Source: Candidatus Zhuqueibacterota bacterium (GTDB lineage: Bacteria; Zhuqueibacterota; Zhuqueibacteria; Oceanimicrobiales; Oceanimicrobiaceae). Taken from it: 64,000 nt of DNA. The stretch lies in the NCBI GenBank assembly GCA_029262055.1, contig JAJDAD010000049.1, forward strand, positions 1-64,000, in the 5' to 3' direction. The notes under the pieces are model-generated. The model was not told the DNA's origin. It did not search any database and saw only the letters and a list, made by a program, of their open reading frames with translations. The position numbers and the translations under genes are program-made. Every line of letters starts with the position of its first letter. The first letter of the stretch is position 1. Of the stretch, positions 58,154 to 64,000 are shown in pieces.

Positions 58154-59137
58154 CTATTCCACTATCGTCTGCAGCGCACTCCAAATTTCATCTTTTAGCT
58201 CTGTAATTCCAGCCCCTGTGACACTTGAGATGTGCCGAACAGGCACCGGTAGCTTGCTTACCAGTTCCGAAAAATCTGCCTCCGGTTGCAGATCGGATTT
58301 GGTCAAAAGTACCGAGTGAATCCGGCCCGGAAGCCCATCCTGATATTGCTCCAACTCCCCCTGTAGCAGAAGATACGTTTCGTAAAGGTCGTCAGCGGAG
58401 CAGTCCAGGAGAACGAGCAAAAGCTTGGTCCGCTCGATGTGTCGCAGAAACTCATGCCCGAGCCCTTTGCCTAGATGTGCACCCTCGATTATGCCCGGGA
58501 TATCTGCAACCACATAGCTCCCCACGTCCCGATATTTGACAATTCCAAGATTTGGCTTAAGGGTGGTAAAAGGATAGTCCGCGATTTTGGGTTTAGCGTG
58601 TGAAAGTTTTGAAATCAGAGTAGACTTGCCCGAGTTGGGCAAACCCACCAGGCCGACATCGGCGATCAGTTTCAATTCCAGCTCAAGAATCTTCTCTTCG
58701 CCAAACTCGCCTGATTCCCAGTGCCGCGGTGCCTGATTGGTAGAACTGGCAAAGCGGGCATTTCCGCGGCCACCGTGACCGCCCCTGGCTGCGACCACCG
58801 ATTGATTGGCGTCCGTTAAGTCGGCGAGCAGAGTGCCGTCTGCCTGATCCCTGATGACGGTACCGAGCGGAACCTTGACCAGCAGCGGCTGCCCGTTCTT
58901 GCCGTGACAGTTGCTGCCCTTTCCGTGCTCTGCCCTGCCGGCCTTAAAGTGCGGCTTATACTTAAAATCCAGCAGAGTCGAGAGGTTCGGGTCTGCTTGC
59001 AGGACAACGTTGCCACCATTGCCACCATCACCGCCATTGGGTCCACCCTTGGCAACATACTTTTCCCTGCGAAAGCTAACGCAACCGCTACCGCCATTGC
59101 CAGCCTGAACTTTGATTACAGCCTTGTCTATAAACAT
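58154..59137 (-). CDS. obg: GTPase Obg (CgtA), short form
   Basis: Ribosome-assembly and stress GTPase. The 327-residue protein has the glycine-rich Obg fold (1-157, SGCVSFRREKYVAKGGPNGG), then the G domain with G1 GLPNSGKST (165-173), DYPFTTL (G2, 187-193), DIPG (G3), TKSD for G4 and SSVTG for G5. It ends right after the G domain, so the C-terminal OCT domain of some homologues is absent, as in the E. coli type length class. It begins 113 nt left of the STAS gene stop. Confidence 0.96.
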   Translation of the reverse strand: MFIDKAVIKVQAGNGGSGCVSFRREKYVAKGGPNGGDGGNGGNVVLQADPNLSTLLDFKYKPHFKAGRAEHGKGSNCHGKNGQPLLVKVPLGTVIRDQADGTLLADLTDANQSVVAARGGHGGRGNARFASSTNQAPRHWESGEFGEEKILELELKLIADVGLVGLPNSGKSTLISKLSHAKPKIADYPFTTLKPNLGIVKYRDVGSYVVADIPGIIEGAHLGKGLGHEFLRHIERTKLLLVLLDCSADDLYETYLLLQGELEQYQDGLPGRIHSVLLTKSDLQPEADFSELVSKLPVPVRHISSVTGAGITELKDEIWSALQTIVE

Positions 59138-59250: not shown

Positions 59251-59958
59251 CTAACCGGCGGCCCTTTGATTAAAGTATGCCATTCTCTTCTTCTTAGAGT
59301 CCAACTCCAGGCGCTTCAAATATTTACGCATTTGAAACCAGCCTAGCTTGATATTTCCAAAAGGCGGGCTGTCCAGCTCCTTGATCAGTTGCCTGACGCT
59401 CAAATCCGGCTTTTCAACAACTAGCTGCTGCAGCTTCTCATCGATGGGATCAGCCGTAGCACCCTGTTCCGGCTCAACTTCAAAGTCGGACTGTGGCTCA
59501 GTATCTACATCATTGTTGAGGGAGGCTCCCGGCTCGGCTACCCCGCCCATGGCTGGCTCCGGCTGCTGATCCGTTTCCAGCCGCGCAGCTACTGTTCCGC
59601 CGTTCTGGTCAAAGTCAGCTATCGCCTCCTCCAAAGTATCAAAAGCCTTCAATATATAGTGAAACTCAAGAAGCTCAAAGACTTCAAAAACGTCCGGAAT
59701 CATCCGCACTAACTTGAGATCACCGTGCCGCTCCCGGATCCCTTTGATTTCACTGATAAAAATACCCCACCCGGCGCTGCTAATGTAGTCGACGTTACCC
59801 AGATCGATTACGATATTGTAGGTACTCGCTTTCAAAAGTGAAGACAACGAATGTTCCAGCTCAGCAGAGGTGGTCGTATCGATGTACCCCCCAACCTTGA
59901 TCACAGAAATGTTCTTCTGCGGCCCGACCTTTTCCAAGGACACTTGAATGCCTTCCAT
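59251..59958 (-). CDS. STAS-domain anti-sigma factor antagonist with C-terminal HTH-like domain
   Basis: A 235-residue protein. Residues 1-115 are a STAS domain like RsbV/SpoIIAA. IDLGNVDYISSAGWGIF places Ser61 at the phospho-acceptor serine of RsbV (Ser56) and SpoIIAA (Ser58). Residues 120-170 are an acidic, Pro- and Gly-rich linker. Residues 172-231 form a charged helical domain (KLQQLVVEKPDLSVRQLIKE, then KYLKRLELDSKKKRMAYF) that resembles a region of the neighbouring kinase-phosphatase. The ATG at 59958 follows AGGAG. Its own promoter lies just upstream. It should be the substrate of the upstream kinase and phosphatase domains (inference). Confidence 0.88.
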   Translation of the reverse strand: MEGIQVSLEKVGPQKNISVIKVGGYIDTTTSAELEHSLSSLLKASTYNIVIDLGNVDYISSAGWGIFISEIKGIRERHGDLKLVRMIPDVFEVFELLEFHYILKAFDTLEEAIADFDQNGGTVAARLETDQQPEPAMGGVAEPGASLNNDVDTEPQSDFEVEPEQGATADPIDEKLQQLVVEKPDLSVRQLIKELDSPPFGNIKLGWFQMRKYLKRLELDSKKKRMAYFNQRAAG

Positions 59959-59995
59959 GCACAGCTCCTACGTTCAGATTTAAAAAACGGTGAAG

Positions 59996-60024
59996 AATAT
60001 AAGAGAAAGTAGTAAAAAAGTCAA
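59996..60024 (-). promoter_or_regulatory. Predicted promoter of the STAS gene
   Basis: Minus strand: TTGACT (60019-60024), 17 nt, TATATT (59996-60001), identical in both hexamers and spacing to the tRNA-Ser(GCT)-gltX promoter. The start would be near 59989, about 30 nt before the ATG. Confidence 0.75.
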
Positions 60025-60067
60025 ACAGAAACCAAAGCCAAACACTCTTGAGCAAGCTACGCCGCAG

Positions 60068-63000
60068 TTACATCATCCGAAGCGCCTTACGGATCTTGTC
60101 CTGGATGTCTGTCCGATCCGGGTTCAACTCGATTATCCTTTTCCACTCAAAAACCGCGTCTTTAAAGTTGCCGCGATTGGCGTAAATGACACCCATATTC
60201 TCATAGGCCGTAATATCGTTGGGATCAATATCCTTTACGCGTTCATACTCAACGGCTGCTTCGCGGTACATTTTGTTCCTGAAATAAGCGTTCCCCAGAA
60301 TGCTATGCGCTTCTTTGTAGTCGGGATATATGTCTATCACCCGGCGAAACTCTTCTATGGCGCGCTCATAATCATTGTTCTTATAGTATTTGATACCATT
60401 AATCAGGACCATTTCCTTGCTGACCGTATCATCCTGGTATTCGTCGGCATCATGACCGGCATCGGCCGTGACGGGCGGATCTGTCTTATTCCCGGCGGAA
60501 TTGCCATTGCCATTCAGGCCGGCGCTCTGCGGGCTCTCCTCTTCACTTTGAGAATATGACTGTTTCCGCGGCGTGTCCGCGAAGCGGCTTGGCGGCTCGG
60601 CTACGTAGACCAGGTCGTCGTCGATGGCACGAATCAAGTCCGAAAAGGAAACCAGATCCGTTTCCCCAGCCTGTTCCTCTTCCAGTTCAGGCTCTGCAGC
60701 CGACTCAGGCACCTCGCTCTCGCTTTCCTCAGACGGAAAAAGGTCTGTCCCGGCAAAATGGTCCTCGCCCAGAAGTTCGTCGGTCGATGAAGCCGAGACC
60801 GAGTCGTCATCAGCTCCTGTCTCCACAAACTCATGCTCGTTCTCATCAGTGACAGCACCGCCAAATGGCGCCTCCGGATCCTCCACCAAAAGATCCTCGA
60901 GGTTTTCGACGTTTTCTAACTCACCGCCGGATTCTTCCTCAGGGAACTCAGCTTCGCCCGCTGAAACAAACTCCTGCGACTCCTCCTGCTCCTGCGGGGC
61001 GAAATCGTCTTCAACTTCCGGCTCTGCATCGCTGCCAAACAAGTCTTCAAATGAAATATCTGCCGTCAGAGACTGTTCCTCCACTTCTTCTTCCCGCTCC
61101 CGAGTTTCAGTTACAGCCTCGGTTTCAGCTTCAACTTCAGCAGTCTCGACATCGTTGAATTCAAACAACTCCTCAAAGCCATCGTCGTCAGCCGGTGGAG
61201 CTTCCTGGCTTTCCGATGGATAATCAACTGATACGACACCCTCATCCTCCTCAGGCAGGGGTTCAGGCTCTACCCGGTTGGCAAGCACATCCTGCAGGTC
61301 TGAAGTTAACAGGTCGTTGGCTTCGAGGTCATCTATTTCCTCTTCTACTATTCCAGAAGCAGGCTCCGTCGTAACGACATCGATCGAAATGCCGCCCGGG
61401 CTTTCGGCTGGTGCACCTTCATCGCTCGGGACATCACTCCTGGGCTCAGGGCTCGGCGTTTCTTCTGGCTCGGGTAGAATACCGTACTCTTTCTGCTCCA
61501 GCTCCTGCACAACCAGTTGTCCGTCCAGGGTCATAAATGGCGTACCCGGAGTCTTGATACGTCGTTTCCCGCGCTTCGCCTTCCTAAGGTAAGCCTCACG
61601 TAGCGCGCGCGTGTTGAGTCGATTTCGAACAAGCTCTTCGTATATTCGGCTCTCCAGAGTTCGGGTAAACTGGTACTTCTCCGTGTTGAGCTCATCCCGG
61701 ATTCTCCCGGCGCCATACTCCGGATGATTCTGGATAATATCGAATATCTTCGTTTTGTCCTCGATGCTAACGTGCTTGGACTCGACCGAAATGGACTCAT
61801 CGACCTCATAGGCATCAGCGCCTTGCTGCTCAAATACCTTCTTGTATTTGTTATAGTAGGCGTGCGTCGACAGGTTCGCGGACTCGCATGCATCCTTGAC
61901 TGTGAGTCCACCCGTGATTAGCTCATAAACTTCTTTGGCACGCCTGAGCTCGTCTTCCTGGCGCGTGTACTCTTCTTTTATCGTTACCAGGGTGATGTCA
62001 TCGTACTGCGGTGCCCCCTCGGTAAAGGAATAAATCGAATCCTTTAGCTTTTCAACAAACTGGTTCGCCGACAGATCGCCGTGCTCACGAAGAACATGCT
62101 GCAGCCTTTCCTCACCAAACAGTTCGCGCCGGGAGTTCATCGCCTCGGTAATGCCATCGGTATAAAGCAACAGGATATCATCTTTGGTGAGTTGGATCGT
62201 ATCCGACTGGATATAATTCTTAAAGTAATCCTTGTCCGGTAACTGCACGCCGATCGGGAAACCTTTCGGGTTTAGGTAATAAGTCTTTTCGGTACTCCCT
62301 CTATACAGGATCATCGGGTTGTGGCCGGCGCTGGCGTAATTCAGGCGGCGTTTTTTGGAATCGATGATCAGATAGAAAACCGTGACAAACATTCCCTTCT
62401 TGATGTCATTTGCGACAAACGCGTTGACGCGGGAGAGTACCTCGGCGGCATCCTTGAGGCCCCGTGCTTCGGTCCGCAAGGCGGTGCGGATCATTGTCAT
62501 AACCAGTGACCCGGGGACACCCTTTCCGGACACGTCGGCGACCGCAATGCCGAGAGTGTCTTTATCTACCTCAACGAAATCATAGTAATCGCCACCAACT
62601 TCTTTGGCAGCCTCGTAAAAGGCAGAGAGCTGATATCCTTCCAGCTCCGGAAATTCCATCGGCAGCAAGGTTTGCTGAATCTCCTGCGCTACCTGCATTT
62701 CTTTCTGCAACCGTTCCTGGTCCGCCAGGTTCTTCTGTGAATCGCGGAATTTATGAGTGATCTCGCTGAACGCCTTGGCTATTTCGCCAATCTCTGTTGA
62801 GGCATCAATGTCGACGTCATCCCCAATCTCCCCTTCATTGCCCATATTCTTGACCCATTCGGACAGCTTGCGGAATGGGTTCATCACCAGGTATATCAAG
62901 ATAACAACGCCGGCACAGCTCACGCCCAAAATCACCAAAGCCAACTGCAAGTCGGCCATTCTCTTGGCAACAACCCTCTCTTCCGCGTCCTGGGCAGAGA

Positions 63001-63919
63001 AAAGAATGTGGGCCTTACCGTAGTATTCCCCGGTCTCCTTTATAATGATCGGACTTTCCAGTTCGTAGAAAGTCTCGCCATCAATTTGCTGATACTTGTA
63101 GATGCCCCTAAAAACCTCTTCAAAAGCCTTTGGGCGTTTAAACTCCTCCAAGCCGATTTCGTACGGATTTGAGCTATAAACAATAAACCCGGTGCTATCT
63201 TCGATGGATATCCGGGACACCTGCTCCTGGTACTCTTCATTAATAGGATCAGCGATGACATCGATGAAGGTAAAGTTGTCCTTGGAGGCGGAACTGATCA
63301 AGTTGACTATCTGGCGCCCGGTGAGCTGAGATTCGGAAAGAAACTCGGAGAGAATTTCATCATCCGTTTTCATAAAGAAAAAAAGATAGCCAGTGGCAAT
63401 TGTCGCCGTAATAATCGTGATGGCGCGGAAGAAATATTTGGCTTTGATTGAAAAAGGAATGGTCGAAACCGAGCGCAGGAACCCCTTCTTGTCCTGAGGG
63501 TCGCGGCTTTTGCTGATGCGAAGTTCGTTGCCCTCATCCGTGCGCCGGTAATCGATATCGTCCATGAGCTTGCGCATGATGAAAATGCCAAGCCCACCTT
63601 TTTTGCCGATATCGATGTAGCGGTTCAGGTCGGGATCCTTGACCCGCTTGGGATCAAAAAAGGTGCCCTGATCGATGATTGACAACGTCAGGCTGTTCTT
63701 TTTGGCGATGGCCCGGATCGTGATGAGGCCTTCTTTTTCGCGATAGGCATGCCGAATTATGTTGGTGGCTGCCTCGTCAACGGCCAGCTTGAACGCATTT
63801 ACGACCTTGTCGGAGAATCGGTGCTTATGCCCGATCTGCGTCACAAAGTCCCGCAAGTCGCCCAAATAGTCGATATGGGCCGGGACTTTGATTTGTTGTT
63901 TTTCTACGCTTGCAAACAC
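60068..63919 (-). CDS. Fused RsbW-type kinase, transmembrane sensor, PP2C phosphatase, HTH and TPR protein
   Basis: A 1283-residue protein, start GTG. 1-140: HATPase anti-sigma kinase with N box DEAATNIIRHAY (48-59), DQG (83-85) and GGLGIFIM (108-115). 161-183 and about 325-348: membrane spans flanking an extracytoplasmic sensor. 349-400: HAMP-like. 410-648: PP2C with GGDYYD (442-447), ADVSGKG (Asp462), YTDG (Asp588) and YDD (639-641). 655-695: helix-turn-helix (GGLTVKDACESANLSTHAYY). 719-776: second HTH-like unit resembling transposase N-termini. 810-1165: acidic disordered linker. 1169-1269: three TPRs. Both catalytic domains keep their key residues. It probably phosphorylates and dephosphorylates the downstream STAS protein according to an outside signal (inference). 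It starts 3 nt after a gene cut by the right edge. Confidence 0.9.
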   Translation of the reverse strand: MFASVEKQQIKVPAHIDYLGDLRDFVTQIGHKHRFSDKVVNAFKLAVDEAATNIIRHAYREKEGLITIRAIAKKNSLTLSIIDQGTFFDPKRVKDPDLNRYIDIGKKGGLGIFIMRKLMDDIDYRRTDEGNELRISKSRDPQDKKGFLRSVSTIPFSIKAKYFFRAITIITATIATGYLFFFMKTDDEILSEFLSESQLTGRQIVNLISSASKDNFTFIDVIADPINEEYQEQVSRISIEDSTGFIVYSSNPYEIGLEEFKRPKAFEEVFRGIYKYQQIDGETFYELESPIIIKETGEYYGKAHILFSAQDAEERVVAKRMADLQLALVILGVSCAGVVILIYLVMNPFRKLSEWVKNMGNEGEIGDDVDIDASTEIGEIAKAFSEITHKFRDSQKNLADQERLQKEMQVAQEIQQTLLPMEFPELEGYQLSAFYEAAKEVGGDYYDFVEVDKDTLGIAVADVSGKGVPGSLVMTMIRTALRTEARGLKDAAEVLSRVNAFVANDIKKGMFVTVFYLIIDSKKRRLNYASAGHNPMILYRGSTEKTYYLNPKGFPIGVQLPDKDYFKNYIQSDTIQLTKDDILLLYTDGITEAMNSRRELFGEERLQHVLREHGDLSANQFVEKLKDSIYSFTEGAPQYDDITLVTIKEEYTRQEDELRRAKEVYELITGGLTVKDACESANLSTHAYYNKYKKVFEQQGADAYEVDESISVESKHVSIEDKTKIFDIIQNHPEYGAGRIRDELNTEKYQFTRTLESRIYEELVRNRLNTRALREAYLRKAKRGKRRIKTPGTPFMTLDGQLVVQELEQKEYGILPEPEETPSPEPRSDVPSDEGAPAESPGGISIDVVTTEPASGIVEEEIDDLEANDLLTSDLQDVLANRVEPEPLPEEDEGVVSVDYPSESQEAPPADDDGFEELFEFNDVETAEVEAETEAVTETREREEEVEEQSLTADISFEDLFGSDAEPEVEDDFAPQEQEESQEFVSAGEAEFPEEESGGELENVENLEDLLVEDPEAPFGGAVTDENEHEFVETGADDDSVSASSTDELLGEDHFAGTDLFPSEESESEVPESAAEPELEEEQAGETDLVSFSDLIRAIDDDLVYVAEPPSRFADTPRKQSYSQSEEESPQSAGLNGNGNSAGNKTDPPVTADAGHDADEYQDDTVSKEMVLINGIKYYKNNDYERAIEEFRRVIDIYPDYKEAHSILGNAYFRNKMYREAAVEYERVKDIDPNDITAYENMGVIYANRGNFKDAVFEWKRIIELNPDRTDIQDKIRKALRMM

Positions 63920-63922
63920 CTG

Positions 63923-64000
63923 CTATTCCGAGTCATTTCCTAGCCGCTCTCGCAGACCGTCGATGCGGTCCAGAATAATTTTGTTGTACGGCTGCAACTG
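63923..64000 (-). CDS. C-terminal end of an unidentified protein, cut by window edge
   Basis: Reading the minus strand from the right edge, a frame gives 25 residues beginning QLQPYNKIILDRIDGLRERL and ends in TAG at 63923-63925. It is too short to identify. It stops 3 nt before the GTG of the kinase-phosphatase gene, so the two are probably in one transcript, and the missing part could matter for understanding the partner-switching system. Confidence 0.6.
   Translation of the reverse strand, partial: QLQPYNKIILDRIDGLRERLGNDSE

Follow-up and report, generated by a model that had tools for sequence, protein, structure and literature searches.

The locus described here raises the question of what is controlled by a membrane protein that carries both an RsbW-type kinase and an RsbU-type PP2C phosphatase on one chain, and that is encoded beside a small STAS protein. 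It lies at the end of the window (the whole stretch of 64,000 nucleotides that was analysed), which belongs to a genome of 5.7 Mb in 114 contigs from KSB1. This lineage has been renamed Zhuqueibacterota, comprises one class and five orders, and is reported to make up 3-10% of biofilm-associated communities (PMC11683472). We refer to the kinase/phosphatase as KP and to its neighbour as STAS1; two related STAS proteins encoded elsewhere in these genomes are called STAS2 and STAS3. The architecture of KP, its conservation, the order of the genes around it and a domain common to KP and the STAS proteins can all be read directly from the sequences. They lead us to suggest, at a probability of roughly 0.58, that KP and the STAS proteins form a partner switch resembling SypE-SypA, one that would couple the condition of the surface, or of a T9SS, to polysaccharide output; the catalysis, the substrates, the signal, the direction of control and the exopolysaccharide (EPS) output are what we infer.

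Architecture of the kinase/phosphatase

The coordinates of KP, its domains and its neighbours are collected in Table 1. The kinase shows the HATPase_c_2 fold with the N-box and G-box residues of the RsbW/SpoIIAB type, and the phosphatase is a SpoIIE domain with the conserved acidic metal-site residues of the SpoIIE/RsbU type. In 13 KP sequences these residues are invariant or nearly so in both domains, mean column identity over the whole kinase-to-PP2C alignment being 63%. With both catalytic domains on one chain, KP can probably add phosphate to STAS1 as well as remove it. An earlier reading of the same DNA (the first-pass annotation) had recognised both domains as intact on one polypeptide, and the Pfam matches together with the class-wide conservation of the active sites agree with it. 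The domain search it proposed found HATPase_c_2, SpoIIE, TPR and STAS, with HAMP (E 5.9e-4, 20.5 bits) falling under the Pfam cut-off of 25, and its acidic linker of about 350 residues and TPR tail are matched by the composition and by TPR_2.

Table 1. Positions of KP, STAS1 and their neighbours in the window.
Feature	Position	Strand	Basis or remark
KP gene, 1283-aa membrane kinase/phosphatase, GTG start	60068..63919	-	open reading frame present at these coordinates
KP RsbW-type kinase domain, aa 13-137	63509..63883	-	HATPase_c_2, 2.8e-29
KP extracytoplasmic sensor of predicted PDC/Cache fold with a membrane span on either side, about aa 158-345	62885..63448	-	model, Foldseek
KP HAMP, aa 341-384 (weak Pfam score), then helical linker	62768..62899	-	Pfam, Foldseek
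KP SpoIIE/RsbU-type PP2C phosphatase, aa 453-648	61976..62563	-	Pfam, 4.2e-51
KP transposase-type HTH region, aa 655-803, two units, the second being the shared domain	61511..61957	-	
KP acidic linker, aa 811-1160, variable and poorly conserved	60440..61489	-	32% D+E, 3% K+R
KP TPR repeats, aa 1175-1272	60104..60397	-	Pfam TPR_2, 1.6e-18
STAS1, 235 aa, STAS domain and C-terminal HTH-like domain	59251..59958	-	Pfam STAS, 9.6e-17
STAS1 C-terminal domain, a homologue of KP's second HTH unit	59263..59475	-	hhalign, E 1.8e-12
PorV/PorQ-family gene with TPR, 3' end	63923..64000	-	rest beyond the window, on contig C58 to 65980
Obg, downstream neighbour, membership in the system uncertain	58154..59137	-	conserved neighbour

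Kinase and phosphatase are separated by a sensor between two membrane spans, an arrangement also proposed at first pass, on which the structural model and Foldseek concur. Residues 141-399 were modelled at a pLDDT of 87.7 as a long helix, a six-stranded sheet domain and a second long helix running into the HAMP. Among extracytoplasmic PDC/Cache domains the model resembles those of CitA (2j80, 2.4e-4) and WalK (4ywz, 3.6e-4), and Chlamydia RsbU (6mab, 4e-3) was matched as well. Because of the model and these matches, the sensor is assigned to the PDC/Cache type and predicted to lie outside the inner membrane. It is also the most divergent folded part of KP, with a mean column identity of 36%, so the signal sensed may differ between lineages, and a common ligand or partner is conjectural. 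The external ligand put forward at first pass is therefore compatible with the fold, but given this divergence it is a guess. As to how a sensor of this kind could act on the enzyme, coiled-coil linkers, HAMP-linked ones included, have been argued in general to control PPM phosphatases (PMC12143880).

Neither chance nor error seems to account for this protein. A frame or assembly artefact was considered and rejected, the same open frame being present in orthologues across the class, and since relatives as distant as 42-50% identity retain the complete architecture, it is not a product of chance. In profile searches, on which all genome-wide statements here are based, KP was found in nearly all of 60 KSB1 genomes and, outside the class, in one genome of the Latescibacterota and three of the Calditrichota, the latter at 45-47% identity. 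The architecture is thus no one-off but recurs throughout the class and beyond it, and the host genome itself holds a second full copy, of 1849 aa (L070:3930-9479, contig C32), beside which no STAS gene was found. This second KP keeps the domain order of the first, its TPR repeats form two blocks and its linker is very long; all counterparts that were seen belong to genomes of the host's own family. In the Latescibacterota protein (L086:7953-12359) three STAS domains are fused at the C-terminus, and two more STAS genes follow downstream. A wider contig search gave at least 80 loci, and the architecture may occur in further phyla.

A domain common to enzyme and STAS proteins

STAS1 has the STAS fold of anti-sigma-factor antagonists (61.7 bits against the ant_ant_sig model, cut-off 53.45), and its Ser60 and Ser61 lie within YISSAGWG, of which SSAGWG is invariant in 35 sequences. 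Its gene adjoins that of KP on one contig in 51 of the 60 KSB1 genomes (as read from two result tables), at a gap of 72-270 bp where this was read, and the exceptions are mostly contig ends or incomplete genomes. The idea that a STAS gene stands beside KP by chance was set aside on this count. The adjoining STAS protein had been proposed as the likely substrate on account of its acceptor serine, and the class-wide conservation of the motif speaks for that proposal; the annotation was right about the STAS domain and the serine, and missed the HTH domain that the protein has in common with KP.

The C-terminal stretch of STAS1 (60-70 residues) and KP's second HTH unit align at an hhalign probability of 97.7%, as against 0.1% for the KP sensor profile, included in the same comparison as a control. 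Across 40 genomes a profile of the domain gave 131 matches, and those listed fall, judged by size and position of the open reading frame, in KP, the second KP, STAS1, STAS2 or STAS3. The domain thus looks private to KP and its presumed STAS substrates, as far as can be told from the profile. Its likely nature emerges from the orthologues. In the KP sequence alone the HTH matches (HTH_21, HTH_Tnp_1) are sub-threshold, but of 35 KP orthologues 31 match HTH_32 (best 3e-9), 26 match HTH_28 (best 2.2e-10) and 23 match HTH_21, all of them HTH families typical of transposases. NCBIfam models add a weak similarity of the region to IS481 and IS3 transposases. The HTH units named at first pass are accordingly weak in this sequence alone and gain their support from the orthologues.

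Whether such a domain touches DNA bears directly on what the STAS proteins would do. The same domain on both partners suggests pairing, DNA contact would be unusual for a membrane-bound protein such as KP, and the model of the HTH consists of helices only, its best Foldseek match being a PAX paired domain at a non-significant E of 0.68; the HTH profile, run by hmmsearch against PDB sequences, found no significant match either. We therefore give close to even odds, if slightly under, to the possibility that the domain serves in docking or dimerisation only, with the STAS protein binding an EPS export protein or some other enzyme; this is compatible with the main reading. Against it, the orthologues match DNA-binding families of transposases and STAS3 matches HTH_32 at 5e-6, although DNA binding is predicted here from Pfam profiles only.

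Conserved neighbours and the proposed switch

Upstream, KP is preceded by a gene for a PorV/PorQ-family protein of 685 aa with a TPR tail, which ends three bases before the KP start, and further upstream by one for a giant protein, whose reading frame is still open where the contig stops at 1897 aa or more and which carries a T9SS type A sorting tail. The first protein scores 123 bits against the PorV_fam model (cut-off 90) and is not the T9SS PorV equivalog itself (42 bits against a cut-off of 250), whilst the Por_Secre_tail C-terminal sorting domain of the second scores 29 bits against a cut-off of 23. The PorV-family gene precedes KP in all 20 further KSB1 genomes sampled, the giant protein is present wherever the contig reaches far enough in these 20 regions, and the order giant protein, PorV-family protein, KP, STAS1 is repeated in three Calditrichota and one Latescibacterota regions, L086 and L091 being among the non-KSB1 regions with both upstream genes. 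By itself, a neighbour with a sorting tail would be unremarkable, because the host genome, in which the T9SS gene SprA is present, holds about 147 sorting-tail matches; the conserved gene order is the argument. The four genes form an apparent operon that extends past the end of the window. A TTGACT-17-TATATT site is found a short distance before STAS1, but chance alone is expected to supply sites of this kind, and a promoter and terminator scan of the operon gave no excess over shuffled sequences. Downstream of STAS1, Obg follows in most KSB1 regions sampled, often with DprA and GltX. In Bacillus subtilis, Obg is connected with the sigma-B partner switch; here its proximity may be a coincidence of a core-gene block.

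A hint of the output comes from STAS2, another protein of the STAS-HTH kind, in which the SSAGWG motif is likewise present. In the host genome its gene stands directly before those for a Wza-type export protein, a Wzz/BY-kinase, a nucleotide-sugar epimerase/dehydratase and an initiating sugar transferase, and in 20 of 20 sampled KSB1 genomes, as in the host's own, it heads the EPS-export operon, directly before Wza-Wzc. STAS2 (L077:6521-7234) and its orthologues (L192-L211) end in a nearly invariant ...KR(Y/F)RFYRSR tail. STAS3, found in two families, is a protein of about 390-760 aa in which STAS domain and HTH are joined by a long linker; in one genome (G017) its gene lies among those for Poly_export, Wzz, TPR, BY-kinase, epimerase and polysaccharide deacetylase proteins, and the neighbours read in two others (G024 and G027) are consistent with this EPS cluster. 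In this second EPS cluster STAS3 is directly followed by a gene for a TPR protein (L242:6493-7731), with a similar gene after STAS3 in L244 and L245. The link between STAS2 and EPS genes was seen in KSB1 only, the Calditrichota genomes examined having one full STAS-HTH protein each. The first-pass annotation had found no sigma factor nearby and considered the output open. The former holds, a sigma domain being absent from the KP and STAS1 neighbours that were read, whereas the latter is no longer wholly so, given STAS-HTH paralogues in EPS operons.

If these parts belong together, the switch could work as follows. KP would be anchored by the two membrane spans around its Cache-fold sensor, and its kinase would phosphorylate STAS1 on Ser61 (or Ser60), the PP2C domain taking the phosphate off again; STAS2 and STAS3 would probably be KP substrates likewise, on the serine pair of SSAGWG. 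The HAMP and helical linker would relay the state of the sensor to the phosphatase and so bias the balance between kinase and phosphatase, the signal most likely reflecting the condition of the cell surface, or that of the PorV/T9SS-type partner whose gene immediately precedes KP. The domain common to KP, STAS1, STAS2 and, in some families, STAS3 would bring the substrates to KP, and/or would direct the STAS proteins to DNA or to a partner that they have in common. From within their EPS operons, STAS2 and STAS3 would pass the output on to the making of polysaccharide, in the role that SypA has at the syp locus. Gene neighbourhood is no proof that the two are KP targets. A bolder form of this idea, which we hold to be possible but doubtful, is that a transposase-type HTH was recruited as private wiring, phosphorylation moving the STAS-HTH proteins between KP at the membrane and EPS promoters, so that T9SS or surface state would be linked to matrix genes free of any sigma factor.

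Two other readings compete with this one. It is unlikely, in our estimate, that KP and STAS1 form a closed switch for the surface/T9SS operon or some other local target, with STAS2 and STAS3 under other kinases and the EPS link a matter of shared ancestry. STAS1 is always paired with KP and STAS2 never, the genome encodes several free RsbW-type kinases, and the Calditrichota have KP-STAS1 in spite of lacking a second full STAS-HTH protein; but the common domain ties KP to all STAS-HTH paralogues and, among the matches listed for the 40 genomes, to nothing else, and the STAS2 neighbourhoods read in the host and sampled genomes contain no kinase or phosphatase dedicated to STAS2. A canonical sigma switch, in which the KP kinase would be the anti-sigma factor, unphosphorylated STAS1 would displace a sigma factor encoded at a distance and the HTH would be accessory, is improbable too: for it speak the RsbW type of the kinase, the 29 Sigma70_r2 candidates in the host genome and the binding of RpoS by the kinase domain of the bifunctional HsbR and CrsR (PMC6482189), and against it the lack of any sigma gene among the conserved neighbours of KP and STAS1 in the sampled genomes and the substrate paralogues, with HTH, in EPS operons, a membrane-bound anti-sigma factor being possible but unsupported here.

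Relation to known partner switches

Signalling tied to the T9SS is known from PorXY-SigP of Porphyromonas (PMC7712824), which is, unlike the KP cluster, a two-component system with an ECF sigma factor and not a partner switch. Rv1364c of Mycobacterium tuberculosis (PAS-PP2C-kinase-STAS; PMC9138534, PMC12143880) resembles KP in having PP2C and kinase on one chain and a STAS substrate, and differs in its PAS sensor, its fused STAS, the kinase placed after the PP2C and its tie to a sigma factor. HsbR-HsbA and CrsR-CrsA of Pseudomonas and Shewanella are likewise bifunctional kinase/PP2C partner switches, theirs controlling biofilm or stress, but with no membrane sensor, a sigma factor or FlgM as target and the order receiver-PP2C-kinase (PMC6482189). 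The first-pass statement that a receiver joins the two halves is accordingly true of SypE and not of HsbR.

Chlamydia RsbU and Pseudomonas SiaA resemble KP in having a PP2C behind an extracytoplasmic sensor; KP scores 6.9e-19 against the SiaA model, yet far below its cut-off. Neither of the two is known to have a kinase on the same chain, as KP does. Sensor, phosphatase and kinase do occur together in sensor-(HAMP)-PP2C-kinase proteins of Fibrobacter, Treponema, Ignavibacteriales and Oscillospiraceae (L114, L142, L143, L146, L151, L157), most of them with a STAS gene nearby. Their kinase is C-terminal, in mirror image of KP, no KP-type HTH or TPR was detected in them, their STAS proteins are without the HTH-like domain, and the literature searched holds no experimental report on them. 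The architecture of KP, a candidate novelty at first pass, appears to be one in its exact combination, of which no description was found in the literature searched, and not in its joining of membrane sensor, PP2C and kinase on one chain.

The nearest characterised system is SypE-SypA of Vibrio fischeri. SypE has the order kinase-receiver-PP2C (PMC10120452), and KP shares with it the N-terminal kinase, the downstream PP2C and a gene for a small STAS partner; the syp polysaccharide locus begins with sypA (PMC4517449), a position held here by STAS2, at the head of its EPS operon, and not by STAS1. In place of the central receiver, for which Pfam gave no match in KP, stand a predicted membrane Cache-type sensor and HAMP, and HTH, acidic linker and TPR are added. 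Because it has the catalytic features of SypE and not its receiver, KP is, as judged by its domains, a distinct variant of the SypE-type bifunctional switch, with the receiver replaced by a membrane sensor. The KSB1 STAS proteins differ from SypA in their extra HTH-like domain, and one enzyme is proposed to serve two or three STAS paralogues. The targets of STAS proteins that work independently of sigma factors, SypA among them, are an open question (PMC8256260, PMC10120452), and a STAS protein with a recognisable HTH-type domain therefore provides a testable case, the more so as STAS-HTH proteins head EPS operons class-wide and a direct output can be tested. If our interpretation is correct, largely uncultured bacteria common in biofilms would link a T9SS-type surface apparatus to polysaccharide production by a partner switch, its signalling specificity carried by one domain common to enzyme and substrates. 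Beyond this unusual shared domain, the variant is marked by two genomic links, to surface genes of T9SS type where the input is probably received and to EPS operons where the output probably goes.
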